Below, piece after piece: positions 4,649 to 33,511 of a stretch of 35,292 nt of DNA. The notes below the pieces were generated by a model. The model was not told the DNA's origin. It worked only from the letters and a program-made list of their open reading frames with translations, and made no database searches. The stretch comes from an uncultured Lachnospiraceae bacterium. Lineage in GTDB: Bacteria; Bacillota; Clostridia; Lachnospirales; Lachnospiraceae. The stretch's first letter is position 1. Every line of letters begins with the position of its first letter. Made by a program: the position numbers and the translations under genes. The stretch is taken from assembly GCA_947631985.1 (NCBI GenBank), contig CANRNK010000009.1, forward strand, positions 1-35,292, written 5' to 3'.

Positions 4649-4881
4649 GGAACATTCAGGATGTTCATGGGAATAATAAGCTAACAGAAAAGGAACGCTT
4701 GATTCTTCTTAAAATGCAGCAGGATGAGATTGACGGGCATTTCACCTATCAACACTTGGCAAGGTATGCAAAAGGGGAGGACAATAAAAAAGTTTTAATT
4801 CAGATGTCAAATGATGAAAAACAGCATTATCTGAATTGGAAGAAATATTGCAATACGTTGGATCTATGGTACTGGGATTAA
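4645..4881 (+). pseudogene. Rubrerythrin-like half of a broken rubrerythrin-VIT1 gene
   Basis: The 78-residue frame starts with the typical ferritin-like helix of fused rubrerythrin-VIT1 proteins (LTEKERLILLKMQQDEIDGHF then NDEKQHYLNWKKY) and keeps the first Glu and the ExxH di-iron ligands. After WKKY the frame runs into CNTLDLWYWD and stops. Those bases, in another frame, encode YVGSMVLGLND, the start of the VIT1 membrane domain. From family knowledge roughly 60 residues (second helical hairpin of the ferritin-like domain) should lie between. This implies an internal deletion of a length not divisible by three. It overlaps the pap stop by four bases. Confidence 0.75.
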
Positions 4882-5327
4882 ATGATGCATTGGTCGAATT
4901 GACAGGAACAATAGCAGGCTTAACCTTTGCATTACAAAGTACCAGACTGGTTGCCCTTTCAGGACTGATTACTGGAATCTCGGCAACGCTTTCCATGGCT
5001 TCGTCGGAATATTTATCGGCAAAAAGCAATGGGGAAGAGAACGCTTTGAAATCTTCAATTTATACTGGAATTGCATACTTGGTAACAGTTGCTTTTTTAA
5101 CGCTTCCTTACTTATTATTGCCTGACAACGCCTATGCCTGGGCGCTCGGAATTATGCTTGTGATTGTAATTTTAATTATTTTCTTTTTTAATTATTATAT
5201 TTCAGTGGCAAAATCGCTTCCTTTTAAGAAAAGATTTATGGAAATGGCAGGCATTAGTTTATCCGTTGCACTCATTTCTTTTGCAATTGGGTTGTTAGTC
5301 AAGAAATTTTTAGGAGTTACTATTTAG
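4836..5327 (+). CDS. VIT1/CCC1-family iron/manganese transporter domain
   Basis: This frame holds the membrane part of the rubrerythrin-VIT1 fusion. VIT1/CCC1 proteins export or sequester Fe2+ or Mn2+. Five membrane segments are visible, beginning at LGLNDALVELTGTIAGLTFAL, LVALSGLITGISATLSMASS, GIAYLVTVAFLTLPYLLL, WALGIMLVIVILIIFFF and MAGISLSVALISFAIGLLV. The GLNDALVELTG and SMASSEYLS signatures are intact. The TTG at 4836 has no clear ribosome site. The ATG at 4866 is an alternative, and either would depend on coupling to the upstream broken frame. The membrane domain is probably still expressible, but without an intact ferritin-like sensor domain. The expected single gene is therefore split. 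Confidence 0.75.
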   Translation: MEEILQYVGSMVLGLNDALVELTGTIAGLTFALQSTRLVALSGLITGISATLSMASSEYLSAKSNGEENALKSSIYTGIAYLVTVAFLTLPYLLLPDNAYAWALGIMLVIVILIIFFFNYYISVAKSLPFKKRFMEMAGISLSVALISFAIGLLVKKFLGVTI

Positions 5328-6748: not shown

Positions 6749-8440
6749 TTAGTGCTCCATATTTCTGTGGAATAACTTATGTTCTTTTCCTTTGAACAAA
6801 GTATCATACATTTGTAATAAGACTGGGTTCTCATCAGGATATCTAATATTTGAGGTGGTATCTACTTTATAAATACCATCCATACGACTTTTTCTGGTTC
6901 TTGCACCAGCAAAAGGAGGTTGTCCACCACCCATGATACATCCGCGGCGACAGGCCATTACTTCAACAAAATCATATTGTACTTCTCCGGACTTGATTCG
7001 ATCAAGTAATTTTGCAGTTGCAGCAAGTCCATGAACAACAGCAATTTTCACTTCGCGGTCTCCCAACATAAGGGAAGCTTCCTTTAAGGTATCTTCACCA
7101 CGAACACCGGTAAAACTGATTTCTTCTAATGTTTTGTAATTTTTTTCTTTTGCAAGCTTTCTAAGGACGGCTTCTGTTACACCACCAGTTGTTCCAAAAA
7201 TTTTTCCGCCACCAGAAGCGACTGCAAATGGCATATCCGCGGCTTCATCTTCCAGCTGATCAAACCGGATTCCAACCTGTTTAATCATCCGAATAATTTC
7301 TTGTGTTGTAAGAACAAAGTCAGTGTCTTGTTTTCCGTCTGTGAAGTTATCAGGACGTAGAATTTCGGCCTTTTTTGCGGTACAGGGCATGATAGATACA
7401 ACGATGGTCTTCTTACCTTCTGACGCATCTTTTTCTTTGAAGTATTCCTTTAACAGTGGTGAAAACATACCCTGTGGAGAACGACAAGATGAAATATTAT
7501 TTGCAAACTCTGGGTATCTACTTTCACAGAACTTGACCCATCCAGGGCAGCATGATGTGAAAAGTGGCAGGTTCGTATTCTGCTCAAGACGTTGTGCCAA
7601 TTCTTTCGACTCTTCCATTACAGTCAGGTCCGCTGCAAAACTGGTATCATATACAGCATCAAAGCCCATCATACGAAGTGAGTTTACTAGTTTTCCAAAG
7701 CTATTTTCCCCTTTGGGAAGATTAAAGCTATCGCCAACTGCAATTCGAACAGCAGGTGCAATCTGTGCTACAACTCTGACATTTGGGTCGTCAATTGCAT
7801 TCCAGATTTGAGTTACATTGGTACGTACTGTAATTGCAGCAGTGGGACAGACAACTGCACACTGTCCACAGCCAACACAGTCCGTCTCGGCTAAAGTCTT
7901 GTTAAAAGCTGGCATTACCTGAGTTTCAGATCCACGATAAGCAAAGTCAATTGCGCCGACTGCCTGAATTTCATCGCAAGTTCTGACACAGTCTCCGCAA
8001 AGGATACATTTATTGGGATCACGAACGATAGAAGGAGAACTCATATCCAAAGGAAGCTGTTTTTTGTTATTTAAAAATCTGACAGCATGGACACCAACTC
8101 GGAAGGCAAGGTCTTGCAAAGAGCAGCTTCCGTTTTTTTGGCATGTGGTACAATCTCTACAGTGAGAAGAAAGTAGCAATTCAATAATCATCTTTCGATA
8201 AGCCTGAACGCGCTTCGTATTTGTTTGAATGACCATGCCTGGTCTTGGCTGTTCCGAACAAGAGGCAAAAATATTGCCACGTTCATCTTCAACAACACAC
8301 ATTCTGCAGGCGCCATAGATTGACAGCTCAGAATGATAACAAAAAGTTGGAAGATCGATTCCTATTTTTCTGATGAGAGATAATACATTTTTCTCGTCCT
8401 CAATGGGAACTCTTTTTGAATCTATTGTTATATAATTCAT
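6749..8440 (-). CDS. hydA: [FeFe]-hydrogenase catalytic subunit HydA (HndD-like)
   Basis: A 563-residue catalytic subunit of a multimeric [FeFe]-hydrogenase. In order: N-terminal [2Fe-2S] domain (CYHSELSIYGACRMC), His-Cys3 cluster site (HCRDCTTCQKNGSC), two [4Fe-4S] motifs (CILCGDCVRTC and CVGCGQCAVVC), then the H-cluster domain with L1 TSCCPGW, L2 MPCTAKKAE and L3 MACRRGCIMGGGQP. Iron hydrogenases of this trimeric type couple H2 formation to oxidation of NADH and reduced ferredoxin. The L3 variable positions are Arg-Arg where Pro-Gly is common. A GGAGGAG lies before the start, 12 bases after hydB. HydE, HydF and HydG maturases are not in the window and must be elsewhere. Confidence 0.93.
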   Translation of the reverse strand: MNYITIDSKRVPIEDEKNVLSLIRKIGIDLPTFCYHSELSIYGACRMCVVEDERGNIFASCSEQPRPGMVIQTNTKRVQAYRKMIIELLLSSHCRDCTTCQKNGSCSLQDLAFRVGVHAVRFLNNKKQLPLDMSSPSIVRDPNKCILCGDCVRTCDEIQAVGAIDFAYRGSETQVMPAFNKTLAETDCVGCGQCAVVCPTAAITVRTNVTQIWNAIDDPNVRVVAQIAPAVRIAVGDSFNLPKGENSFGKLVNSLRMMGFDAVYDTSFAADLTVMEESKELAQRLEQNTNLPLFTSCCPGWVKFCESRYPEFANNISSCRSPQGMFSPLLKEYFKEKDASEGKKTIVVSIMPCTAKKAEILRPDNFTDGKQDTDFVLTTQEIIRMIKQVGIRFDQLEDEAADMPFAVASGGGKIFGTTGGVTEAVLRKLAKEKNYKTLEEISFTGVRGEDTLKEASLMLGDREVKIAVVHGLAATAKLLDRIKSGEVQYDFVEVMACRRGCIMGGGQPPFAGARTRKSRMDGIYKVDTTSNIRYPDENPVLLQMYDTLFKGKEHKLFHRNMEH

Positions 8441-8452
8441 TTTGTACTCCTC

Positions 8453-10324
8453 CTAGCCTGCTATGTAGATTGCATCAAACGGACAATTATCAATACATGC
8501 CCCACATTTGATACAGGTATCCTGATCAATAAGATAAGGGGTTTTCACCTGTCCGCTGATTGCATTGACAGGGCAGTTTCTTGCACATTTTGAACATCCT
8601 TTGCATAAATCTGGATTAATAATATAGCTACGCATGGCCTGACAGGTTCCTGTCTGACATTTCTTTGCCTCAACATGTTCTACGTACTCTTCATGAAAAT
8701 TCTTCAAAGTACTTAGGACTGGAAGTGCTGCACTTTTGCCAAGCCCGCATAGAGCCGTAGCACTGATAACGTCACCTAATTCTTCCAACAAAGCAAGATC
8801 GTCTAAAGATCCGTTTCCGGATACGATGCGTTCCAGAATTTCCAACATTCTTTTGGTACCTTCACGACAAGGAACACATTTACCACAACTTTCATTTTGG
8901 GTAAAATTCATGAAGAATCTTGCGACTTCTACCATGCAGGTATCTTCGTCCATAACAACTAATCCACCAGATCCAATCATTGCACCTAGTTTTTTTAAGG
9001 AATCAAAATCAAGATGAACATCAAGATCTTTTGTTACAAGACAACCACCCGAAGGACCACCAATCTGAACTGCTTTAAAAGCAGCATCATTTTGTAGACC
9101 ACCGCCAATATCAAATACAATTTCTTTTAAGGAAGTGCCCATGGGAACTTCGATCAGCCCGGTATTTTTTACGCTACCAGTTAACGCGAAAGCCTTTGTG
9201 CCTGGACTTCCGGGGGTGCCAATCTGAAGATACCAGGCAGCTCCATTTTTAATAATTAACGGAACATTAGCGTAGGTTTCAACGTTATTTAATACGGTAG
9301 GCTTTGCAAACAGACCCTGCTCCACAGTTCTTGGTGGTTTGGTTCTAGGCATGCCACGTTCACCCTCAATAGAGGCTGTCAAGGCACTTCCTTCTCCGCA
9401 TACAAAAGCACCCGCTCCACGATTGATATTTAACTTGAAGCTATAGCCAGAACCTAAAATATTATCTCCTAAAAGGCCAGCTTCTTCAGCTTGCAAAATT
9501 GCTAATTTAAGACGCTTGATTGCAAGTGGGTATTCTGCCCGGACATAAATATACCCTTCCTGGGCACCAACAGCATAACCTGCAATAATCATCCCTTCCA
9601 GCATTTTATGGGGATCGCCTTCCATAACGCTTCGATCCATGAAAGCTCCTGGATCTCCCTCGTCGCCGTTGCATACAATGTATCTGGTTAATTCTGGCTG
9701 CCTTGCAACCTGCTTCCATTTATAACCGGTCTGAAAACCGCCGCCACCACGTCCACGGAGATTTGACTCGAGTATTTCATCTACAACATCAGAAGAGGTC
9801 ATTTCAAATAGAACCTTTTCAAGTGCTTCATATCCACCACAGGCAACATATTCATCGATATCTTCTGCGTTAATATGACCACAGTTTTTAAGTACAAGGC
9901 GTGTTTGCTTTGCATAAAAAGGAATTGTTTCCTGCTGTGGATAAATCTTACCTTCCTGTTGGTACATCAGGCGTTCAACTGGTTCCCCTTTCAGGATTGT
10001 TTTCTGAAAGATTTCTTCACAGTCTTCTTCTTTTACTTTTATATAGAGGTAATTCCAGGGTTCGATTCTGACAAGTGGTCCCATTTCACAAAATCCATGA
10101 CAACCACTTTGGTGAACCCCTATATGTGCAGCCTCAGGACCAAATTCCAGAGAGACCCCTTCTATTTCAGAAGACATTTCACTTAATGTTTTATATATTT
10201 TACCGGAACCACCTGCAAGACAGCCAGTTCCTGCACAAATCAGTATTCTGCAGTCTTCTTTTTTCATTTTATTCTGAGACTGTGTTCTATAAAGTTTTAA
10301 ATCATCTCTTGTCTTTAACATCAT
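8453..10324 (-). CDS. hydB: Electron-bifurcating hydrogenase subunit HydB (NuoF-like, NADH-binding)
   Basis: A 623-residue flavoprotein subunit. It has an N-terminal thioredoxin-like [2Fe-2S] domain (CAGTGCLAGG and QSGCHGFC) and an NADH/FMN-binding NuoF core (GRGGGGFQTGYKW and CNGDEGDPGAFMDR). A [4Fe-4S] site follows (SCGKCVPCREGTKRM), then a C-terminal 2x[4Fe-4S] ferredoxin-like tail (CKGCSKCARNCP and CIKCGACIDNCP). This is the classic HydB layout in which FMN is the site of electron bifurcation or confurcation between NAD(H), ferredoxin and the hydrogenase. The start overlaps the hydC stop by four bases. NADP-specific HndC proteins look alike, so the nucleotide used is inferred. Confidence 0.93.
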   Translation of the reverse strand: MMLKTRDDLKLYRTQSQNKMKKEDCRILICAGTGCLAGGSGKIYKTLSEMSSEIEGVSLEFGPEAAHIGVHQSGCHGFCEMGPLVRIEPWNYLYIKVKEEDCEEIFQKTILKGEPVERLMYQQEGKIYPQQETIPFYAKQTRLVLKNCGHINAEDIDEYVACGGYEALEKVLFEMTSSDVVDEILESNLRGRGGGGFQTGYKWKQVARQPELTRYIVCNGDEGDPGAFMDRSVMEGDPHKMLEGMIIAGYAVGAQEGYIYVRAEYPLAIKRLKLAILQAEEAGLLGDNILGSGYSFKLNINRGAGAFVCGEGSALTASIEGERGMPRTKPPRTVEQGLFAKPTVLNNVETYANVPLIIKNGAAWYLQIGTPGSPGTKAFALTGSVKNTGLIEVPMGTSLKEIVFDIGGGLQNDAAFKAVQIGGPSGGCLVTKDLDVHLDFDSLKKLGAMIGSGGLVVMDEDTCMVEVARFFMNFTQNESCGKCVPCREGTKRMLEILERIVSGNGSLDDLALLEELGDVISATALCGLGKSAALPVLSTLKNFHEEYVEHVEAKKCQTGTCQAMRSYIINPDLCKGCSKCARNCPVNAISGQVKTPYLIDQDTCIKCGACIDNCPFDAIYIAG

Positions 10325-10818
10325 GCTTCATTACCCCTCAATTCTGCTAATAAAGTATTGACTTTTTCTGGTGTCATCGAAGGATGAACTTCATCATTTA
10401 CGGTCAGAACTGGCGCAAGCCCACACGCACCAAGACAGGACACCGTTTCCAACGTGAATAACATGTCTTCCGTTGTATGTTTTTCCTTCGATAATCCTAA
10501 TTCTTTATAGAGTTTATCTAATATAACGGTTGATTTTCGCACGTGACAAGCGGTACCATCACACACTCTGATTACATATTTTCCCTTTGGTTCAAAAGAG
10601 AAATTCTCATAAAAAGTTGCAACGCTATAAGCTTTTGATTCATTAATCCCCAATTGTGTTGCTACATACGTTAATAGTTCAGCGGGTAAATATCTGTAAT
10701 GCGCCTGAATATCCTGAATAATAGGAATCAGAGACTTTTGAGTCTTACCGTGTTCCGCTATAATTTCATCAGCTTTCATGTAATACGATTGATCTACCAT
10801 AATTAACCTTCCTTTCAC
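10321..10818 (-). CDS. hydC: Hydrogenase subunit HydC (NuoE-like, [2Fe-2S])
   Basis: A 165-residue thioredoxin-like [2Fe-2S] subunit of the NuoE family. Cluster ligands are the cysteines of VCDGTAC and of SCLGACG near the C-terminus. It passes electrons between the HydB flavin site and the rest of the complex. It is the first gene of hydCBA: the start follows AAAGGAAGG, and the stop overlaps hydB. On the minus strand a TATAAT (plus 10841-10846) lies about 25 bases upstream of the start, with no convincing -35 element, so the promoter is only tentative. Confidence 0.92.
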   Translation of the reverse strand: MKGRLIMVDQSYYMKADEIIAEHGKTQKSLIPIIQDIQAHYRYLPAELLTYVATQLGINESKAYSVATFYENFSFEPKGKYVIRVCDGTACHVRKSTVILDKLYKELGLSKEKHTTEDMLFTLETVSCLGACGLAPVLTVNDEVHPSMTPEKVNTLLAELRGNEA

Positions 10819-15837: not shown

Positions 15838-16368
15838 TCAACTACAGATTTCACCGTCACCCATTTTTGCGTCTAAGCCCCAGTCTTTTTTTGTATAATG
15901 ATCTAAATAAATTGCACCGAAATGATGCATCATTTCTAAAATTGGAATAATCTGACGTCCTAGAGAAGTTAACTCGTATTCCACCTTAGGTGGAACGGTT
16001 GGATATACATGCCGAGAGATTAAATGATCCTCTTCAAGGCTTCGAAGCTGCGTTGTCAGCATTTTCTGTGTCACATCAGGCATCTTGCGCTTAATCTCAT
16101 TAAATCGAAGTACTTTATTACTTAAAAACCACAATATTAGTATCTTTCTTTTACCTGACAAGATTTTTTGAACCAGAACCATCGGACAAACATCAGTCTG
16201 AAGGCAGGTATCTCTCATAAAACAGTCCTGGTGTTTTTTTGTTTTATCAAGGAGTCCATCGCAACCCGTACCCGATAATCCGGCCGATGTTTCGGTCGAA
16301 ATTGCCCTATTCTGTAGGGTTGCATCAAGAATTGAGTTATCGTAATCTGTATTTTCTTTCTTTTCCAT
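15838..16368 (-). CDS. HxlR-family regulator with Cys-rich N-terminal extension
   Basis: The C-terminal 110 residues are a HxlR (DUF24) winged helix: GKRKILILWFLSNKVLRFNEI, the recognition region MPDVTQKMLTTQLRSLEEDHLI, and the hallmark VPPKVEYELTSLG. HxlR proteins bind palindromes as dimers, and several (YodB, QorR, HypR) sense quinones or oxidants by cysteine. The ATG at 16368 is preferred over 16479 because AAGAAGGA lies ahead of it and none is found at the longer start. It still leaves about 60 residues before the core, holding Cys in GTGCDG and in the cluster QDCFMRDTCLQTDVCP. It is divergent from the FLEET genes and is the obvious candidate to control them, perhaps by redox. Confidence 0.85.
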   Translation of the reverse strand: MEKKENTDYDNSILDATLQNRAISTETSAGLSGTGCDGLLDKTKKHQDCFMRDTCLQTDVCPMVLVQKILSGKRKILILWFLSNKVLRFNEIKRKMPDVTQKMLTTQLRSLEEDHLISRHVYPTVPPKVEYELTSLGRQIIPILEMMHHFGAIYLDHYTKKDWGLDAKMGDGEICS

Positions 16369-16425
16369 TTTTATAACCATTCCTTCTTTACATGTACATG
16401 AATCACCTTTAACTACTAATACAAG

Positions 16426-16441
16426 GTATCTTTTTAGATAC
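16426..16441. promoter_or_regulatory. Candidate HxlR operator palindrome
   Basis: GTATCT-TTTT-AGATAC is a perfect 6-bp inverted repeat with a four-base centre, located about 58 bases upstream of the preferred hxlR start. The shape (GTAnC near a T-run, then GnTAC) resembles published HxlR/DUF24 operators. Half-site-like AGATACC and GTATCTT also occur at 16519 and 16563 in the divergent region. Confidence 0.5.
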
Positions 16442-16555
16442 TGAGGATATAAAAAGTACCTTCTTGCACTTAGTTGCATCTAACTATAATATAAAAACAT
16501 ATGAGTTTACTAGGAAATTAGATACCAACATTATAACACACATAATTATAGTTCG

Positions 16556-16625
16556 CAAAATGCGTATCTTGTTAAGAAAATAACAAAATGCGCTTACTTG
16601 TAACCTCTTAATTTCACGATAAGAT
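16556..16625 (+). promoter_or_regulatory. Divergent control region: direct repeat and candidate ndh2 promoter
   Basis: CAAAATGCG occurs at 16556-16564 and again at 16584-16592, with the inverted repeat GTTAAGAAAATAAC between them (16571-16584). Immediately downstream are TTGTAA (16598-16603), a 16-base spacer and TAAGAT (16620-16625), a plausible promoter reading into ndh2. The repeats would sit at or upstream of the -35 region, as expected for an operator or activator site. Confidence 0.4.
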
Positions 16626-16656
16626 TCGTTATATTGTAAACATCTAAAAAAGGCGT

Positions 16657-16676
16657 AGCATGCCAAAGCATGCAGA
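16657..16676 (+). repeat. Hairpin-forming repeat, copy 3, in the ndh2 leader
   Basis: AGCATGC-CAAA-GCATGCAGA differs by one loop base from the core of the copies at 2325-2344 and 2392-2411. It again lies immediately upstream of a ribosome binding site (AGGAAAAGG), here that of ndh2. Confidence 0.78.
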
Positions 16677-16688
16677 ATAGGAAAAGGT

Positions 16689-18704
16689 ATGAAAAAAAAC
16701 ATTGTAATTATTGGGGCAGGATATGCAGGGATTCTGATCGCGAAAAAACTTGCAAAAAAATTAAAGAAAAACCAGGAAGTAGAGATTACGATTATTGATA
16801 AAAATCCATTCCACACGATGCTTACCGAGCTACATGAGGTTGCGGCAGGCCGTGTTGATGAGGATAGTATCAAAATCAGTCTACAGAAAGTTTTTGCCGG
16901 AAGAAAAGTAGCGGTCAAACTTGATACAATTGAAACAATTGATTATGATACAAAAACTGTAGTGGGCAAAGTTGCTAGTTATCAGTATGATTATCTGGTT
17001 CTTGCCGCTGGTTCGAAGCCAACTTTTTATGGGGTACCTGGAGCTGCAGAATTCACTTTCAAACTATGGTCTTATGACGACGCAATCCTTTTGAAAAATA
17101 GAATATTAGATGTATTTAGAAAAGCTTCCTGTGAAAAAAATCTGGAAGAAAAAAAGAAACTCCTTACTTTTTATGTTGTTGGTGCCGGCTTTACCGGAGT
17201 GGAAATGGTTGGTGAGTTAGCAGAATACGTCCCATTTTTATGTGAGAAATATGAAATTGACAGGAGCGACGTAACCATTGTCAATGTAGATGGTCTGAGC
17301 CGTCCTATTCCGAATCTTCCAGAAAAATTGTCCGCAAAGGTAGCAAAAAGATTAACTAAAATGGGTGTCGCATTAAGAATGAGCACCTCTGTTGCCAGCG
17401 TGGGACCTGATTACATTGAACTCAAAACTGGGGATAAGACAGAGCAATTTCCAGCCGGCACGGTTGTATGGGGAGCTGGAATCGAAAGTAGTGATATTAC
17501 TGCAAAAGCTGGGACAAATCATGAAATGCAGCGTGGCGGCAGAATTCAGGTTGATTCAAATCTGCGCTCGGTAAAAGATGAAAGTGTTTACGTAATTGGG
17601 GATAATATGTTCTATATTCCAGAAGGCGAAAAAAATGCAGTTCCTCAAATGGTTGAAAACTGTGAGCAATGTTCTGAAGTAGCAGCACATAATATCACAT
17701 CTTCTATTTTAGGAAAGAATGATCTTGAAGTTTATAAACCGTCCTTCCACGGTGTTATGGTTTGCATTGGTGGGCGCTATGGTGTAGCGCATGTTGGATT
17801 ACCGGGTCACTTTTTCAGCATGCCATCATTTTTTGCAATGCTTGCAAAACATTTTATAAATGTAATTTATTTTATTCAGGTATTGGGTTGGAATAAAGTG
17901 TTTAGTTATATCAAACATGAATTTTTTACAATAAGAAATAATAGAAGTTTTCTTGGTGGACACTTCTCTAATAAAACACCAAGTTTTCTTCTTGTTCCAC
18001 TTCGTGTCTGGCTTGGCGCGGTTTGGCTGTTTGAAGGAGTGATGAAGATTCTGGAAGGCTGGATGAACACACCGAAATTAACTGGATTCTTTGGAGGGGC
18101 AAAAAGCTGGTATGATATGATTTTATATCCCGCAGTTGCAGGTACTACGGATGCAGTTTCGGCTGCAACAACAGAGGTTGCAGTAGCGGCTACGGATGCA
18201 GTTTCCTCATCGACAGCAGTAGCTGATACAGCGGCTGGGGTTCCAGCAGTTGTAGGAGAGGCGTTGATCAACTTTGATTTCCTTGGACTGATTAGATTCA
18301 TCTTTGTAACTGGGACAGATCTTGCAAGCGCTACTTTGAGTGATCTCGCGTTTAAACTTGATATTCCGGTGATGAATTGGTTTGTTGATACACTTATTCT
18401 TCCAAATGATAGCATTCAGATTATGATGCAGATTTTTATTGTTGTAGCAGAAATACTGATAGGACTTGCTCTCATGGGAGGGTTATTTACAGCTCCGGCA
18501 GCAGCAGTATCCCTTGTTTTGCAGTTCATGTTTGTATGTACGACGGGATTGTATCTCGGAACGTTCTGGATGATTTTTGCCGGAATAGCTGTCTTAATTG
18601 GAGCAGGAAGAACATTGGGACTTGACTATTATGCAATGCCTCAATTAAAGAAACTATGGAAGAAAATACCTTTTGTAAAAAAATGGTATCTCTACCATGA
18701 CTAA
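16689..18704 (+). CDS. ndh2: Type II NADH dehydrogenase fused to DoxX-like membrane domain (Ndh2 of FLEET)
   Basis: A 671-residue protein. Residues 1 to about 400 are a type II NADH dehydrogenase: FAD site IVIIGAGYAGI at the N-terminus, NAD site VVGAGFTGVEM (about 161-171), VWGAGI, and the second FAD motif SVYVIGDN. From about 440 a DoxX-like membrane domain follows (RVWLGAVWLFEGVMKILEGW, then helices starting IMMQIFIVVAEILIGLALMG and AVSLVLQFMFVCTTGLYLG). This two-part form matches the dedicated Ndh2 of Listeria-type extracellular electron transfer, which passes NADH electrons to a separate quinone pool. Between membrane helices sits a 40-residue Ala/Val/Thr-rich stretch (about 485-523) that is unusual. 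It begins the FLEET operon and overlaps the next track ORF. Confidence 0.92.
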   Translation: MKKNIVIIGAGYAGILIAKKLAKKLKKNQEVEITIIDKNPFHTMLTELHEVAAGRVDEDSIKISLQKVFAGRKVAVKLDTIETIDYDTKTVVGKVASYQYDYLVLAAGSKPTFYGVPGAAEFTFKLWSYDDAILLKNRILDVFRKASCEKNLEEKKKLLTFYVVGAGFTGVEMVGELAEYVPFLCEKYEIDRSDVTIVNVDGLSRPIPNLPEKLSAKVAKRLTKMGVALRMSTSVASVGPDYIELKTGDKTEQFPAGTVVWGAGIESSDITAKAGTNHEMQRGGRIQVDSNLRSVKDESVYVIGDNMFYIPEGEKNAVPQMVENCEQCSEVAAHNITSSILGKNDLEVYKPSFHGVMVCIGGRYGVAHVGLPGHFFSMPSFFAMLAKHFINVIYFIQVLGWNKVFSYIKHEFFTIRNNRSFLGGHFSNKTPSFLLVPLRVWLGAVWLFEGVMKILEGWMNTPKLTGFFGGAKSWYDMILYPAVAGTTDAVSAATTEVAVAATDAVSSSTAVADTAAGVPAVVGEALINFDFLGLIRFIFVTGTDLASATLSDLAFKLDIPVMNWFVDTLILPNDSIQIMMQIFIVVAEILIGLALMGGLFTAPAAAVSLVLQFMFVCTTGLYLGTFWMIFAGIAVLIGAGRTLGLDYYAMPQLKKLWKKIPFVKKWYLYHD

Positions 18705-18732
18705 GAATGGGAAAACAGGTGAAAACATTACG

Positions 18733-19677
18733 ATGTTCTTATTTGATCAGGCATTTTTACAAGTAAAGATAGAAATAGAGAAGGCACTAACAGGCTCACC
18801 GCTTATAATAAGAGAGTATTTGTCGCATTTGTCGCACTCGCAAGGTAAGCTTATCAGAGCCAGATCTGTTCTGGTTGTAGCACAGGATGCAGAAGGATTG
18901 ATTCCTGAGGCGGCAGTGTTAGCAGCTGTAGCAATAGAAATTCTTCATTTGGCATCCCTGGTTCATGATGATGTGATAGATGATGCAGATTTAAGAAGAG
19001 GCAATACGACAGTACAAAAAAAATATGGCAAAAGAACAGCGGTCATTTGTGGAGATTATTTATTAGCACTTTCTCTTAAGATGTTATCAAGGATAGAAGA
19101 TAAAAAGGAATTTCACACCTCGAAGTTTCCTGATTATGTAGGTAGATTATGCCTTGGAGAGTTAAACCAGTATTTAAATAATCATAATACAGGTCTTTCG
19201 GTATATGGTTATCTTAAAATCATCTCTGGGAAAACAGCTGCTCTATTTGAGGCGGCATTCTTCGCTGGAGCGGTTGCAAGTGAAAAAAATAGCATGGAGA
19301 TAGCTTGCTATCAAAAAATCGGACATTGCGTAGGCATGATGTTTCAACTGATGGACGATTGCCTGGATTTTGATAACACAATAGAACAGGCAAGGAAGCC
19401 GGTGCAGTCTGATTATGAAAATGGCGTAATCACACTTCCGTTAATCCATACATTTCAACAGGATGCAAAATTGAAATTACAGGCAGATCAGGGAAAGCTT
19501 ACTCGGGAAGAAATTAATAAATCAGTAGAAAAATCAAATGGACTTGGATTTACCAGGTTTTTGATGGAGCGATTTAATACGAAAGCGATGAGACAGATTG
19601 AAAAGCTTAATCCAAGTGATCAACAACGAAGTGATCTGACTAGAATTTTAGAGCTTGCTTCGGGAAAAGCTATTTAG
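18733..19677 (+). CDS. dmkB: Polyprenyl diphosphate synthase (DmkB-like)
   Basis: A trans-polyprenyl diphosphate synthase of about 314 residues that would make the isoprenoid tail for the FLEET quinone. The two Asp-rich motifs are LVHDDVIDDAD (first, about residue 77) and LMDDCLDFDN (second, about 206), with GKLIRARSVLV and GNTTVQKKYGKR as substrate-binding regions. The track start at 18697 overlaps ndh2 by eight bases and has no clear ribosome site. The ATG at 18733 gives a normal N-terminus and is preferred, though neither site is strong. The next gene is the UbiA prenyltransferase, so tail synthesis and attachment are encoded together. Confidence 0.88.
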   Translation: MFLFDQAFLQVKIEIEKALTGSPLIIREYLSHLSHSQGKLIRARSVLVVAQDAEGLIPEAAVLAAVAIEILHLASLVHDDVIDDADLRRGNTTVQKKYGKRTAVICGDYLLALSLKMLSRIEDKKEFHTSKFPDYVGRLCLGELNQYLNNHNTGLSVYGYLKIISGKTAALFEAAFFAGAVASEKNSMEIACYQKIGHCVGMMFQLMDDCLDFDNTIEQARKPVQSDYENGVITLPLIHTFQQDAKLKLQADQGKLTREEINKSVEKSNGLGFTRFLMERFNTKAMRQIEKLNPSDQQRSDLTRILELASGKAI

Positions 19678-19698
19678 AAGAAAGCGGGAGGATCAAAA

Positions 19699-20601
19699 GT
19701 GCTCAATAATTTTTTTCAGTATACGGAAATTAAAACAAAAATCACCAGCACTTTTACATTTGCGCTAACACTTGCTTTTTTACTGTATTGGGATCAAAAA
19801 ATGGATTGGAAGAGAACGCTCGTTTTCTTTTTGGCAATGCTGTTATTTGACCTGACAACAACAGCAATTAATAATTATATTGATTCAAAAGACAATGGAC
19901 AGACGCTTGCATTTAAAAGAAAAACTTCACTCGCTGTAATTTTTGTGCTGTTTGCACTGAGCACAGTGTTAGGACTATACCTTGCATACTTATCAGACTT
20001 GGTAATACTTTTAGCAGGAGCAGTGTGTTTTGCCTGTGGGGTGTTTTATACCTATGGACCAATTCCGATTTCAAGGCAGCCTCTTGGAGAAGTTTTCTCG
20101 GGATTCTTTTATGGATTTATGATTCCGTTTATTTTGGTATATCTGAATACGCCTAAGGGTACGTATCTATGGTATGAACTTAGTTCAAAGAGTGTTTCAG
20201 TAGAAATTATGTTTATTCCGTTTTTGATCTTGATTCTGCTTTCGCTCATCCCGTTTGCGACGACTGCAAATATTATGCTGGCAAATAATATATGTGATTT
20301 GGAAAAAGATATCACAGTAAAAAGATATACGCTTCCCTTTTATATTGGAAAAGCTGCACTTCCCCTGTTTGCGGGATTATACGGAATCACGTATCTGGCG
20401 ACAATCGTTATGGTGGTGCTTGGTATTTTTCCGGTAATTAGTTTGCTGGCATTAATTACGCTAATACCGGTCATTAGAAATATTCGGATTTTCTTTAAAA
20501 AGCAGATAAAAGAAGAAACCTTTATCTGCTCCATCAAGAACTTTATGTGGATTATGGGAGCAAATACCGTGCTACTTGCCATAGGAAGTTATTTAAAATA
20601 G
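19699..20601 (+). CDS. dmkA: UbiA-family prenyltransferase (DmkA/MenA-like)
   Basis: A 300-residue membrane prenyltransferase with about eight or nine hydrophobic helices. The two polyprenyl-diphosphate binding Asp motifs are NNYIDSKDNG (about 55-65) and NNICDLEKDI (about 196-205), the usual positions in MenA/UbiA enzymes. It would attach the DmkB product to dihydroxynaphthoate to give the demethylmenaquinone used by Ndh2. The GTG start at 19699 follows GGGAGG. No methyltransferase follows, which agrees with a demethylated quinone. Whether the cell also makes the naphthoate head group cannot be seen here. Confidence 0.88.
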   Translation: MLNNFFQYTEIKTKITSTFTFALTLAFLLYWDQKMDWKRTLVFFLAMLLFDLTTTAINNYIDSKDNGQTLAFKRKTSLAVIFVLFALSTVLGLYLAYLSDLVILLAGAVCFACGVFYTYGPIPISRQPLGEVFSGFFYGFMIPFILVYLNTPKGTYLWYELSSKSVSVEIMFIPFLILILLSLIPFATTANIMLANNICDLEKDITVKRYTLPFYIGKAALPLFAGLYGITYLATIVMVVLGIFPVISLLALITLIPVIRNIRIFFKKQIKEETFICSIKNFMWIMGANTVLLAIGSYLK

Positions 20602-20680
20602 GTTTATTCTTCCGTGAAACCGGATTGTAATAAAGATAAATGAATGATTTAGCCGTATTACGGCGGAATGGAGGACAATT

Positions 20681-21730
20681 ATGAAAAAAGCGATTACCAT
20701 TTTACTTGGAATCACTATGACAGCTGCACTTCTTGTAGGATGTGGAAGCACAGCGGAGACAACACCTGCAGCAGAAACAGCTGTAGAAGAAACAACAGAA
20801 GCAGGTGGCGTGAAAACCGGTCTTGCAGTAGTTAGTTCAGTTGCAAAATCAACCAATCCAGCTGAAGAAGATGGATTAGGACAGGTTGACTCTACAGTTG
20901 TAGCAGTGCTTGTAGGGGAAGACGGAAAAATAATTGATTGTAAAATCGATGCAATCCAGACAAAAATCAATTTCTCAGCAGAAGGTAAAATCACTTCAGA
21001 TCTTGCAGCAGAAATCAAGACAAAACAGGAACTTGGAGCAGACTATGGACTTGGAAAAGCTTCAGGAATCAAAAAAGAATGGAATGAGCAGGCAAATGCA
21101 TTAGCTGATTATGTTGTTGGCAAAACAGTAGAAGAAGTGAAAGGCATTGCAGTTGCAGAAGGCGTTCCTACAGATGCAGACCTTACTTCATCAGTAACAA
21201 TTAAAATTGGTGATTATATCACTGCAATTGAGAAGGCAGTAGCTGGAGCGGAAGCACTTGGCGCTGGAAACGAAGATAAGCTTGGCCTTGCAATTGAAAC
21301 ATCAGCTAGTAAATCAACGGATGCAACAGCAGAAGAAGAAGGATTGATTCAAGCTTATACATTCTACTCAGCTGTTACAACAGATGCTGATGGTAAAGTG
21401 ACAAGCTGCTTAATTGATGCTTCCCAGGGAAGTGTTAACTTTGATGCAACAGGCTCAATTACAACTGATTTAGCGGTAGCACCATTGACAAAACAGGAAT
21501 TAAAAGATGAATATGGTATGAAATCTGCTTCTGCAATTGGTGCAGAATGGTATACACAGGCTGATTCATTTGCAACTTATGTAACTGGAAAAACAGCAGC
21601 AGAAGTAACTGGAATTGCTGTTTCAGAAGAAGGACTTGCAGCAGATGCAGACTTGATTAGTTCAGTTACTGTTCATATTGGATCTTTTATTTCAATCGTT
21701 GAGAAAGCAATTGCAAATACTGCAAACTAA
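20681..21730 (+). CDS. pplA: Double FMN-binding-domain lipoprotein (PplA-like)
   Basis: A 349-residue surface lipoprotein: signal MKKAITILLGITMTAALLVGC with lipobox LVGC, a Thr/Glu/Ala-rich linker (about 22-45), then two homologous FMN-binding domains (about 45-195 and 200-349). Each ends in a matching block, DLTSSVTIKIG and DLISSVTVHIG. The Thr of SSVT aligns with the flavinylated Thr of the classical SGAT motif. In Listeria the two-domain PplA carries covalent FMN and is the terminal extracellular reductase. The start follows TGGAGG. The odd palindrome GCCGTATTACGGC lies just upstream (20652-20664). A hairpin follows the gene and would raise its expression relative to fmnB. Confidence 0.9.
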   Translation: MKKAITILLGITMTAALLVGCGSTAETTPAAETAVEETTEAGGVKTGLAVVSSVAKSTNPAEEDGLGQVDSTVVAVLVGEDGKIIDCKIDAIQTKINFSAEGKITSDLAAEIKTKQELGADYGLGKASGIKKEWNEQANALADYVVGKTVEEVKGIAVAEGVPTDADLTSSVTIKIGDYITAIEKAVAGAEALGAGNEDKLGLAIETSASKSTDATAEEEGLIQAYTFYSAVTTDADGKVTSCLIDASQGSVNFDATGSITTDLAVAPLTKQELKDEYGMKSASAIGAEWYTQADSFATYVTGKTAAEVTGIAVSEEGLAADADLISSVTVHIGSFISIVEKAIANTAN

Positions 21731-21764
21731 TGGCAATATAAGTAATATCAGAACACTTTAATTG

Positions 21765-21804
21765 AGGGGATGCATCTACTATTTATAATAGTGTCGCATC
21801 CCCT
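21765..21804 (+). terminator. Terminator/attenuator between pplA and fmnB
   Basis: AGGGGATGC and GCATCCCCT enclose an inner pairing ACTATT / AATAGT, giving a 40-base hairpin followed by T-rich TGTTTCTTCT. As in the ABC operon, it lies after a lipoprotein gene and would favour high expression of that protein. Confidence 0.75.
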
Positions 21805-21841
21805 GTTTCTTCTATGACAGATGTGCATGAGGTAGTAGTAA

Positions 21842-22894
21842 GTGAGAAAGAAAATTGGTACAATTGCATTAGTGGTGAGTTTAATATTAAGTATGACGGC
21901 CTGTGCACCGAGCGAAAAAAGATATGAAGCTTCTTTTTTGGAGCTGTTTGATACCGTGACTACAGTTGTTGGGTATGCAAAGGATGAAGAGACCTTTACT
22001 GAATATACACAAATGATTTATGATTATATGGAGGAATATCATCAGCTTTATGATATTTATCATGATTATGAAGGAATCAACAACATAAAAACAATTAATG
22101 ATAATGCTGGAATTCTGCCAGTTAAGGTGGATCAAAAAATAATTGATTTATTACTTGAATCCAAAGAAATCGAGAAAATAACCAATCATAAAATGAACGT
22201 AGCCTATGGCGCTGTGCTGAAAGTCTGGCATGATTATAGAACGGAAGGTATTGAATCCCCTGAGATGGCGAAGCTTCCACCACTTGAAATGCTGCGTGAG
22301 ATGTCAGAGCATACGAATATGAATGAAATTGTAATTAATGAGGAAGAATCGACTGTTTTTTTGTCAGATCCCGAAATGAGCCTTGATGTTGGAGCGATTG
22401 CAAAGGGATATGCAACAGAAATGACAGCTAACTATATAGAAGAGCAAGGTTTTGAAAATGGAATGATTTCGGTCGGTGGAAATGTCAGAACGATTGGCCA
22501 TAAAGTGGGAGAAGGCGGAGAAGCACTTGCCTGGAATGTTGGAATCCAGAATCCGGAAGTAGAAAGTGAAATGACAACGATTCACATTTTGGAGCTTCAA
22601 GATATGTCGCTTGTAACGAGTGGAGTCTATGAGCGTTATTATACAGTCGATGGAAAGCAGTATCATCATATCATCGATCCGTCGACACTGCTTCCATCAG
22701 AAGAATACCAGTCTGTTTCGATTGTATGCCAAGATAGTGGAAGGGCAGATGCGTTCTCGACCGCAGTTTTTAATATGTCGTTAGAGGAAGGAAAACAACT
22801 GATCGAGTCACAGAAAGATACGGAAGCATTTTGGATTTTAAATGACGGAAGCTTCGTATACAGCTCTGGTTTTGAACAGTTTATTAAGGAGTAA
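21842..22894 (+). CDS. fmnB: ApbE-family FAD:protein FMN transferase (FmnB)
   Basis: A 350-residue extracellular flavin transferase with lipoprotein signal MRKKIGTIALVVSLILSMTAC. ApbE proteins move FMN from FAD to a Thr of target proteins with Mg2+. The signatures are DVGAIAKGYATEM (about 182-194), ISVGGNVRTIG, TSGVYERYYTVDGKQYHH and IIDPSTLLPS (about 277). Within this locus it should flavinylate PplA, whose two candidate sites are encoded just upstream, as FmnB does in Listeria. The GTG start at 21842 follows TGAGGTAG. It is 8 bases ahead of eetA. Confidence 0.94.
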   Translation: MRKKIGTIALVVSLILSMTACAPSEKRYEASFLELFDTVTTVVGYAKDEETFTEYTQMIYDYMEEYHQLYDIYHDYEGINNIKTINDNAGILPVKVDQKIIDLLLESKEIEKITNHKMNVAYGAVLKVWHDYRTEGIESPEMAKLPPLEMLREMSEHTNMNEIVINEEESTVFLSDPEMSLDVGAIAKGYATEMTANYIEEQGFENGMISVGGNVRTIGHKVGEGGEALAWNVGIQNPEVESEMTTIHILELQDMSLVTSGVYERYYTVDGKQYHHIIDPSTLLPSEEYQSVSIVCQDSGRADAFSTAVFNMSLEEGKQLIESQKDTEAFWILNDGSFVYSSGFEQFIKE

Positions 22895-22902
22895 AGTTAA
22901 GA

Positions 22903-23271
22903 ATGATAAAACGGAATGATATCATCCTAGGTGTAGTAGCACTTCTGGTAGCGCTTGCATTTTATCTTTTCTTCTCGCTCACCAAAAGTGATGGAAGCAA
23001 AGTTGAAATTACGGTACAAGGTGAAGTCTATGAAACACTAGAGCTTAGTCAGGACCAGTCCTTCTTGATTACATTGGAGAATGGAGAATACAATACAGTT
23101 GTGATAGAAGATGGCTATGTGAGGATGTCGGAGGCCGATTGTCCAGATAAGCTATGTGTCAAGCACAACAAGATACATTACAACCATGAGACCATTGTCT
23201 GCCTTCCGCATAAGGTAGTGGTTGAAATTGTGAATGGTGAGGCCAATACGGTTGACCTCATTGCAAAATAA
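22903..23271 (+). CDS. eetA: EetA: NusG domain II membrane protein
   Basis: A 122-residue protein with one N-terminal transmembrane helix (DIILGVVALLVALAFYLFFSL) and an extracellular NusG domain II (YETLELS... DCPDKLCVKHNKI... IVCLPHKVVVEI). The two-Cys DCPDKLC and the IVCLPHK strand are family hallmarks. In the FLEET system EetA partners with EetB in the membrane to take electrons from quinol towards flavinylated proteins; the exact mechanism is unresolved. It lies between fmnB and eetB with short gaps, as in other FLEET loci. Confidence 0.9.
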   Translation: MIKRNDIILGVVALLVALAFYLFFSLTKSDGSKVEITVQGEVYETLELSQDQSFLITLENGEYNTVVIEDGYVRMSEADCPDKLCVKHNKIHYNHETIVCLPHKVVVEIVNGEANTVDLIAK

Positions 23272-23286
23272 TCGGGAGTTTATAGA

Positions 23287-23799
23287 ATGAAAACAAAAAA
23301 AATTGCAGTTTTCGGTGTATTAATTGCATTGGCATTTGTACTTAGTTATATTGAAAGTCTGATTCCGATTCCGGTTCCTATTCCGGGAATTAAGCTTGGA
23401 CTGGCCAATCTTGTTGTGATGACTGGACTTTATCTCGTTGGGGAAAAAGAAGCTTTTGTTCTATCTCTTGTACGAATTTTGCTCGTAAGTTTTACTTTTG
23501 GGAGTCCCTCTACGTTTCTTTTTAGCTTCGCAGGAGGAGTACTGAGCTGTTTATGCATGATACTGTTAAAAAGGAGCAATCTGTTTGGGATGACGGGTGT
23601 TAGTATTGCTGGTGGGATTGCACATAACGTTGGTCAGATTTTAATTGCTATGCTGATTGTACATAACGTAATGATGGTTTATTATCTTCCGTTTTTGTTA
23701 ATTTCAGGCGTTCTGACAGGTTTCGCAATAGGGTTGGTAGGCTCGCTTATTATTGGCAACTTGAAGAAGTATCATGTTATGCAGGGAAAAGGCAGGTGA
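23287..23799 (+). CDS. eetB: EetB: Gx transporter family membrane protein
   Basis: A 170-residue integral membrane protein, often annotated heptaprenyl diphosphate synthase component I (Gx_transp, ECF S-component-like fold). About five helices are visible; hallmarks are the Pro-rich SLIPIPVPIPGIKLGLANL and the helices beginning LVRILLVSFTFGSPSTFLFS and AGGIAHNVGQILIAMLI. In Listeria EetB is required with EetA for electron flow from the quinone pool to the cell surface. The older prenyl-synthase name is not supported by sequence. RBS GGGAG precedes the ATG, 15 bases after eetA. Confidence 0.9.
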   Translation: MKTKKIAVFGVLIALAFVLSYIESLIPIPVPIPGIKLGLANLVVMTGLYLVGEKEAFVLSLVRILLVSFTFGSPSTFLFSFAGGVLSCLCMILLKRSNLFGMTGVSIAGGIAHNVGQILIAMLIVHNVMMVYYLPFLLISGVLTGFAIGLVGSLIIGNLKKYHVMQGKGR

Positions 23800-23803
23800 C
23801 GGA

Positions 23804-24478
23804 ATGATCAGAGAGGTAGATTTGGATGAAATATCAGATGGAAAAAGATATCATGCCAATGATCTGGTAAAAGCAGATTGTAATGATTGCATCAATTGTA
23901 ATGAATGTTGCACTGGCATGGGCAATTCGATTATACTGGACCCCTATGATATTGCACTGCTTTCAAGTGGACTAGAGCTAAGCTTTGAGCATTTAATGAA
24001 TGGGAAGATAGAATTGAATCTTGTGGATGGTCTTATCCTTCCGAACCTTGTCATGGATTCGGAGAGAGAACAATGCCTGTTTTTAAACCAACAGGGAAGA
24101 TGTAGCATTCATGCTTTCAGACCTGGCATTTGCAGACTGTTTCCTCTGGGGCGAGTGTATGAAAATAATTCGTTTCAGTATTTTTTGCAGACAAAAGAGT
24201 GTCGAAAGACAAACAGGACAAAAATCAAAGTAAAAAAATGGATTGGACTGCCGAATTTTAGGGACTATGAAAGTTTTGTTTTGCACTGGCATGATTTTTT
24301 ACTGGAGGTACAGCGCATAATCAGAGAGCATGCAGAAGCAGCATATGTAAAAAACCTCAATCTATACCTGTTAAAATTATTTTATCAGACAAGATATGAA
24401 GCAGATTCTGACTTCTTTTCTCAATTTGACCAGAGACTATCTATGGCAAAGGATTATGTGGGTTCACTTTCAGAATGA
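23804..24478 (+). CDS. YkgJ-family Cys-cluster protein
   Basis: A 224-residue cytosolic protein with the YkgJ/CxxCxxCC zinc- or iron-chelating signature: CNDCINCNECCTGMG near residue 25, followed by CLFLNQQGRCSIHAFRPGICRLFPLG and a last Cys in KECRK. The function of the family is not known; the cysteines suggest a metal or Fe-S site. The ATG at 23804, four bases after the eetB stop, gives the normal N-terminus; the track start lies inside eetB. This tight spacing suggests co-transcription with the FLEET genes, although it is not a core member of the system. Confidence 0.85.
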   Translation: MIREVDLDEISDGKRYHANDLVKADCNDCINCNECCTGMGNSIILDPYDIALLSSGLELSFEHLMNGKIELNLVDGLILPNLVMDSEREQCLFLNQQGRCSIHAFRPGICRLFPLGRVYENNSFQYFLQTKECRKTNRTKIKVKKWIGLPNFRDYESFVLHWHDFLLEVQRIIREHAEAAYVKNLNLYLLKLFYQTRYEADSDFFSQFDQRLSMAKDYVGSLSE

Positions 24479-32979: not shown

Positions 32980-33052
32980 GGACTGTATCGAAAGGCTGAA
33001 ATCAGAACCCGTAATTCGCTGTTTCTGAAGGGAAAAGGAGAGTGTGTATAAT

Positions 33053-33511
33053 ATGGAAGAAAATAAAGTAGAAACGAATAATATGGGAGCAAATAAAATA
33101 GAAGAAATAAAAGAAGAAGAAATAAAAGAAGATGAAAACAAATTGGAAGCGCTTTTACGAGAAAATAATAGGCTTTTAAAGCAGCAAATTAATTTGACCA
33201 GAATACTACTGTTTGCTGTGATTCTATTTGTAGTGGGGTTGTTCGCGGGAGGGAGCTATATTGGTGGCAAGTTAAAGGATTTTGATCTTGTAGTGTCTGG
33301 AATTGAAGATATGACGGATCAAATTGCAGAGCTGGACGTAGAATCATTTAATGCAACAATGAAAGAATTTGGAGAAAAGGTATCAAAGTTAAATATCGAT
33401 GGTTTGAATGATACAATTGATACGCTGAATGAGATGGCGTTAAAGGTTGATCAGGTGAATGATCAACTTGAGCAGTTTAAAGAGAAGTTCGGATTTATGT
33501 TCGGAAGCTGA
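33053..33511 (+). CDS. Single-pass membrane protein with coiled-coil regions, function unknown
   Basis: About 152 residues, not recognised as a named family. Order: acidic, Lys/Glu-rich low-complexity head (EEIKEEEIKEDENK), a short coiled coil (LEALLRENNRLLKQQ), one transmembrane helix (ILLFAVILFVVGLFAGGSYIGG), and a C-terminal outer segment of about 85 residues with Leu/Ile/Val heptads typical of a long amphipathic helix (DMTDQIAELD, DTIDTLNEMALKVDQVNDQL). It resembles a membrane-anchored oligomeric stalk. The GTG at 33044 is too near the AAAAGGAG site, so the ATG at 33053 is taken. It lies between the phosphatase and a LysR gene. Confidence 0.7.
   Translation: MEENKVETNNMGANKIEEIKEEEIKEDENKLEALLRENNRLLKQQINLTRILLFAVILFVVGLFAGGSYIGGKLKDFDLVVSGIEDMTDQIAELDVESFNATMKEFGEKVSKLNIDGLNDTIDTLNEMALKVDQVNDQLEQFKEKFGFMFGS

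Follow-up and report, generated by a model that had tools for sequence, protein, structure and literature searches.

A FLEET-type locus in an uncultured Lachnospiraceae bacterium

Does a gene cluster for flavin-based extracellular electron transfer (FLEET) serve that pathway only, or does it also mature a second membrane electron route of the cell? The question is raised by contig CANRNK010000009.1 (assembly GCA_947631985.1) of an uncultured Lachnospiraceae bacterium, the whole 35,292 nucleotides of which are called the window here; it is an entire contig of a 2.6-Mb metagenome-assembled genome (MAG) of 233 contigs, 96% complete and 4% contaminated. An earlier note, made from the sequence alone, had described an apparently complete FLEET locus in it. 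All the genes that it named were recovered as open reading frames (ORFs) at or very near the places given, tightly spaced, in one orientation from ndh2 to ykgJ and with Pfam or NCBIfam matches for most. The order ndh2-dmkB-dmkA-pplA-fmnB-eetA-eetB occupies window positions 16689-23799, with a divergent hxlR. We regard the locus as probably a clostridial variant of flavin-based extracellular electron transfer (EET), in which the flavin mononucleotide (FMN) transferase FmnB and the flavin export subunit EetB also mature the Rnf complex. If so, two membrane electron routes that tend to be considered separately, EET and Rnf, have one common maturation point in these bacteria. The evidence is at the sequence level (gene content, single copies, a synteny swap in sister species and motif differences), and all enzymatic and regulatory steps are inferred from it.

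Compared by protein types and not by gene order, the locus shares seven of eight types with the FLEET system of Listeria (PMC8906456, PMC9973259), including a lipoprotein FmnB with a Ser-His-Asp triad, a PplA-like lipoprotein with two predicted sites and an EetB of PF07456. It differs in lacking fmnA, in the divergent hxlR and in that the host also has Rnf. FLEET has been defined operationally by a K03885 protein with a transmembrane helix within five genes of an ApbE or FMN_bind protein (PMC8238504). Here an NDH-2, membrane-anchored as judged from its sequence, is clustered with an ApbE lipoprotein; DmkA and DmkB are present by family matches (NCBIfam scores under the curated cut-offs), as are the ECF-S (energy-coupling factor) exporter EetB and EetA. 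FLEET identity is further supported because FmnB is, among solved structures, nearest to Listeria FmnB (7ESA) and because the module recurs across Clostridia. On this gene content a FLEET function of the core is very likely.

In the proposed scheme, Ndh2 would oxidise NADH and reduce a demethylmenaquinone-type quinone to quinol; DmkB would make the polyprenyl chain, which DmkA would join to dihydroxynaphthoate (DHNA) imported from outside. From the quinol, electrons would move onto two FMNs bound covalently to the membrane lipoprotein PplA, and PplA would reduce small acceptors (Fe(III), free flavins or other shuttles), regenerating NAD+ in a gut-type fermenter that makes butyrate and H2. Flavin adenine dinucleotide (FAD) would be exported by EetB with the housekeeping EcfT, EcfA and EcfA', with no dedicated FmnA. 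FmnB would then place FMN on the two DLxSSVT sites of PplA, and the FmnB/EetB pair would do the same for RnfG and RnfD. HxlR would probably control the locus through a thiol or quinone switch.

A proposed common flavinylation machinery for FLEET and Rnf

Family searches, on which all absences at the genome level rest, found FmnB as the only ApbE and EetB as the only PF07456 protein of the source genome. An rnfCDGEAB operon lies on another contig, and its RnfG is the only PF04205 (FMN_bind) protein found, so that the genome has no recognised extracellular flavinylated reductase. The motifs of RnfG (DAISGAT) and RnfD (DGYSGAT) are intact. The threonine of motifs of this type takes FMN (PMC12052999), and with both motifs kept Rnf should therefore still need a transferase. 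With no second ApbE and no second exporter found, FmnB and EetB are expected to flavinylate RnfG and RnfD too. That FmnB is the sole transferase and serves Rnf as well appears rather likely from these single copies, and maturation of Rnf may depend on the FLEET locus.

The genus was sampled through five genomes: the source genome (G000), G196 and G198, which carry FLEET, and G197 and G199, which do not. In both FLEET-negative species apbE directly follows rnfB and eetB directly precedes ruvA, with eetA in one of the two. This is the arrangement known from clostridial Rnf-associated ApbE and EetAB, where EetB and ApbE supply FMN to extracytosolic RnfG and RnfD (PMC9973259, PMC8238504), whereas in the source genome the FLEET locus is the one place where both functions were found. 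All three FLEET-positive species have a TPR-DUF4037-ruvA arrangement without eetAB, and in them rnfB is followed by a kinase gene and not by apbE; the neighbours are contiguous at both sites. No remnants of apbE at the rnf site or of eetAB at the ruv site were found in the three. Within the genus, concatenated Rnf and RuvB proteins give a fully supported split between FLEET-positive and FLEET-negative species, so the swap of apbE and eetAB is one event. It may have run either way, the sister genus carrying neither gene set at the rnf and ruv positions, and the EetB tree does not separate a relocated resident gene from one acquired with FLEET.

The swap bears on the best-surviving alternative, a plain Listeria-type FLEET in which FmnB acts on PplA only and Rnf is served by another ApbE lost from the MAG. 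Gene content fits this alternative, the MAG is incomplete, and a second ApbE does occur in G196. However, apbE and eetAB are missing from contiguous rnf and ruv contigs of three separate MAGs, a single ApbE was found in two of these MAGs and a single EetB in each of the three, and the FmnB and PplA motifs are unlike those of the Listeria type (see below). We therefore hold it to be unlikely.

Independent support for a shared machinery comes from Anaerocolumna sedimenticola CBA3638 and Anaerocolumna sp. MB42-C2, in which ndh2-dmkB-dmkA-pplA-fmnB is followed about 250 bp on by rnfCDGEAB (L141 15602-18314 and L143 15509-18259). A 2019 study reported pplA(cad)-apbE pairs only in genomes without rnf (PMC7074142); the source genome and the Anaerocolumna operons are counter-examples to this rule. 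The dependency of Rnf goes beyond the earlier note, as do the finding of a single EetB and a single ApbE, the SSVT and TLxP motifs and the recurrent cysteine-bearing HxlR, while the locus itself belongs to a known kind.

Two further flavinylation-related genes were seen in relatives. The second apbE of G196 (L078 3311-5840, G196:C68) sits by a gene for a NapH-like iron-sulfur membrane protein and is probably part of a different flavinylation system. A related genome that carries FLEET (G187) encodes, 3' of rnfB, a protein of 589 aa with the motif DVIAGAT, which resembles an FMN-attachment site (L116 11755-13524).

Flavin export, quinone supply and the HxlR regulator

The Listeria pathway consists of eight proteins, FmnA among them (PMC8906456). 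EetB has FmnA as its ECF-T partner, and PplA flavinylation requires FmnA, while deletion of eetA gave no phenotype (PMC9973259), so that EetA is not proven essential. In the window EetA (22903..23271, forward strand; PF07009, NusG_II, 4e-33) is followed by EetB (23287..23799, forward; PF07456, Hpre_diP_synt_I, 2e-43; ECF_trnsprt 4e-5), a predicted ECF-S-type flavin export subunit. No ECF-T gene was found in this locus, and the hidden Markov model applied to 80 related loci gave no hit within their FLEET runs; these loci surround the best 80 (from named genomes) of 253 Ndh2 relatives found in a scan across GTDB genomes. Because fmnA is absent from the locus we file it as a variant and not as the Listeria form: the earlier note was right about the FLEET identity and seven protein types, and went too far in calling the Listeria list complete. 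Three CbiQ/EcfT genes lie elsewhere in the genome, one of them the housekeeping copy by truA, rplM and rpsI, and we infer that this housekeeping EcfT serves EetB.

Searches for a source of the quinone head group gave no PF02621 protein (MqnA/MqnD). The sole menB-like match in the genome reached 132 bits, the cut-off being 343 bits, and was rejected as part of a DHNA pathway; it is the crotonase (Crt) of a thl-crt-hbd-bcd-etfBA butyrate operon. No source of DHNA synthesis was thus detectable in the genome by the MqnA/MqnD and MenB family searches. The earlier note had proposed this check and had listed the lack of a naphthoquinone source as grounds for giving up the FLEET assignment. Lactiplantibacillus plantarum, a fermentative host likewise without a complete DHNA pathway, runs FLEET on exogenous DHNA (PMC8837199), and because of this precedent the missing source is taken as a dependency rather than a refutation. 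It is probable from the gene content that the system needs an exogenous naphthoquinone, which predicts quinone cross-feeding. Unlike L. plantarum, the present host is an anaerobe of the butyrate type with Rnf and a HydABC hydrogenase.

The HxlR-family regulator (15838..16479, reverse strand; PF01638 1e-30) probably has its real start downstream of the first ATG. It had been set outside the classical FLEET list together with YkgJ. Of the 80 loci, 9 have a homologous divergent HxlR directly 5' of ndh2, K. alysoides and M. intestini (Lachnospiraceae) being among them, which makes HxlR a recurrent partner in that family, while YkgJ is restricted to the genus. Three conserved cysteines (C-x5-C-x5-CP) precede the helix-turn-helix, and the NCBIfam neighbours, far under cut-off, are the redox regulators RrpA and RrpB. 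A role as thiol or quinone sensor would be a guess from these features. The 209-bp divergent promoter region between hxlR and ndh2 (16480..16688, no strand assigned) was scanned; no perfect inverted repeat of at least 7 bp with a short spacer was found, and an operator palindrome 5' of ndh2 was looked for without result. A literature search did not find HxlR control of FLEET. Of note, HxlRs with the C-x5-C-x5-CP pattern form a subfamily (window 15838-16479 and L133, L136, L139, L142, L149, L151 and L170), possibly of redox or metal sensors.

Such a regulator would suit a different function, namely a quinone-linked NADH oxidase or redox-stress outlet towards oxygen or toxic quinones under a thiol-sensing HxlR, with no extracellular respiration. 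The conserved cysteines, the weak similarity to RrpA and RrpB and the failure to find DHNA synthesis are in its favour. However, most loci keep the lipoprotein PplA, FmnB and EetB together, and an outlet of this kind would not need them; we consider this alternative quite improbable.

The predicted PplA acceptor motif and the FmnB loop

The PplA-like lipoprotein (20681..21730, forward; lipobox Cys21) has two homologous repeats, and T173 (in DLTSSVT) and T330 (in DLISSVT) are its predicted FMN acceptors; its structural model has a mean pLDDT of 89. The description of a double FMN-binding lipoprotein thus stood as to repeats and lipobox, but PF04205 matches neither the whole protein nor any of 23 first-repeat relatives, and homology to FMN_bind was reached by profile comparison via intermediates only. 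Domain searches with PF04205 consequently overlook the clostridial PplA lipoproteins. Profile comparison of PplA with RnfG gave no match. A profile match to 2KZX places SSVT on SGAT (E 1e-3), and comparison with PF04205-positive NDH2-linked lipoproteins carrying SGVT or SGVS gave a match with the motif aligned (hhalign 94.8%, E 5e-8). Because of these matches the clostridial sites are taken to be the same acceptor sites.

Both predicted sites of the clostridial FLEET PplAs (n=62) follow D-L-x-[SA]-S-V-[TS]. The residue preceding the acceptor is V at 60/62 first and 59/59 second sites, and the acceptor Thr or Ser itself is kept at 62/62 and 58/59. The canonical ApbE motif is D-x-x-[ST]-G-A-[ST], and in Klebsiella G-to-A and A-to-V changes lowered flavinylation to about half (PMC12052999). 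Listeria-type orthologues have been reported with SGAT (PMC7074142). A published SSVT motif was not found in a literature search.

FmnB (21842..22894, forward; PF02424 2e-68) is an ApbE-family FAD:protein FMN transferase and a lipoprotein. Its closest solved relative is Listeria FmnB (7ESA, 2e-37), and its triad S260-H276-D303 aligns with Listeria S257, H273 and D301. T-L-x-P is found in 58 of 60 FmnBs of these loci (TLLP here), whereas T-G-Y-P is found in Listeria FmnB, in Rnf-linked ApbEs and in ApbEs beside SG-type lipoproteins. The clostridial FmnBs form one clade (100/100) and Listeria FmnB falls outside it with canonical ApbEs; with the partial Listeria sequence available, joining it to the clade was not rejected (p 0.19 in the approximately unbiased test). 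Whether SSVT and TLxP are functionally paired is an even question on these sequences, the pairing resting largely on one clade. A step further, and somewhat doubtful, clostridial FLEET may have a flavinylation code of its own (TLxP FmnB having evolved with SSVT PplA, as against TGYP with SGAT in Listeria and Rnf systems). In this clade FmnB and the FLEET EetB may have replaced the housekeeping flavinylation genes and would then have to read both codes, tying Rnf energy conservation to the EET locus. The SSVT/TLxP pair offers a natural test of what decides target choice by ApbE.

The same motif could be taken to mean that clostridial PplA is unflavinylated and binds flavin or a shuttle non-covalently while FmnB serves Rnf only, as SSVT in place of SGAT, the missing PF04205 and fold matches and the FLEET-rnf operons of Anaerocolumna would allow, but this is likewise improbable given the conserved acceptor residues, the aligned profile link to PF04205-positive lipoproteins and the position of pplA directly 5' of fmnB in most loci.

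Several points weigh against reading the locus as a FLEET variant that also matures Rnf. PplA is missed by PF04205, a fold search against the PDB with the whole protein or a single repeat gave no significant match (top TM-scores were low), and two positions of SSVT differ from the ApbE consensus. The swap of apbE and eetAB is a single clade-level event compatible with either direction, and G196 holds its second, divergent apbE beside the NapH-like gene. With a MAG of 233 contigs, absences from the genome are not absolute. We know of no cultured member of the genus. Finally, in Listeria EcfT could not stand in for FmnA in export (PMC9973259).

Distribution of the locus

At a threshold of E<=1e-40, 35 of the 196 genomes sampled from the order carry an Ndh2 relative; in the family itself the distribution is patchy (2 of about 22 listed). 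Beside ndh2 in the 80 loci are DmkB in 78, DmkA in 64, PplA in 62, ApbE in 60, EetB in 46 and EetA in 44; these counts are lower bounds, some contigs ending inside the locus. Carriers include Anaerocolumna, Kineothrix, Muricomes, Butyrivibrio, Ruminiclostridium and Caproiciproducens, so that a locus of this kind is commonplace in Clostridia. The gene order is identical in G196, and in G198 across two contigs, so that the arrangement is not due to chance.

Other genes of the locus and window

Spacing from ndh2 to ykgJ is -8, 21, 79, 111, 8, 15 and 4 bp, and with such tight spacing the run is likely one transcript. No convincing internal terminator was found in it, consensus scans being no richer than shuffles. 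Ndh2 (16689..18704, forward; Pyr_redox_2 6e-40; PDB NDH-2s down to 2e-57) is a type II NADH dehydrogenase with a C-terminal membrane extension, present in single copy in the genome. It had been read as an NDH-2/DoxX fusion; the NDH-2 part and the extension, shared by all close relatives, are there, but the membrane-like C-terminal third matches DoxD (0.003) and DoxX (0.04) under the Pfam cut-offs. DmkB (18697..19677, forward; PF00348, polyprenyl_synt, 9e-55) resembles a HepT/HexT-type component of polyprenyl diphosphate synthase, with NCBIfam hexaprenyl and heptaprenyl component matches of 2e-56 and 2e-54, under cut-off. DmkA (19699..20601, forward; PF01040 5e-19) is a UbiA-family protein whose top NCBIfam matches are all DHNA polyprenyltransferase (NF004752 2.5e-74), under the curated cut-off.

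The run ends with a YkgJ-type CxxCxxCC protein (23804..24478, forward; PF03692 5e-10), for which a start at 23804 is more likely than at 23774. As a new FLEET component YkgJ was rejected: it is limited to this genus among the loci compared, and in G198 another gene sits between ykgJ and eetB. It probably stands outside FLEET.

Outside the locus, the bifurcating hydrogenase reported for the same window was recovered as a HydABC-type [FeFe] hydrogenase (6749..10818, reverse; Fe_hyd_lg_C 3e-92; Complex1_51K 2e-45; 2Fe-2S_thioredx 6e-51), which could be an alternative outlet for NADH and ferredoxin. The suggested choice between H2 and an extracellular acceptor is reasonable, though it leaves out of account Rnf and the Bcd/Etf butyrate route, which the genome also has. 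Overall, what the earlier note observed was confirmed and its interpretation is partly supported. An HbpS-like haem-degrading family protein (1809-2324) and a VIT-family transporter homologue (4836-5327) give the window a possible iron context for an EET locus. A 155-aa ORF at 33044-33511, flanked by genes for a low-molecular-weight phosphatase and for a LysR regulator, has no credible family match.

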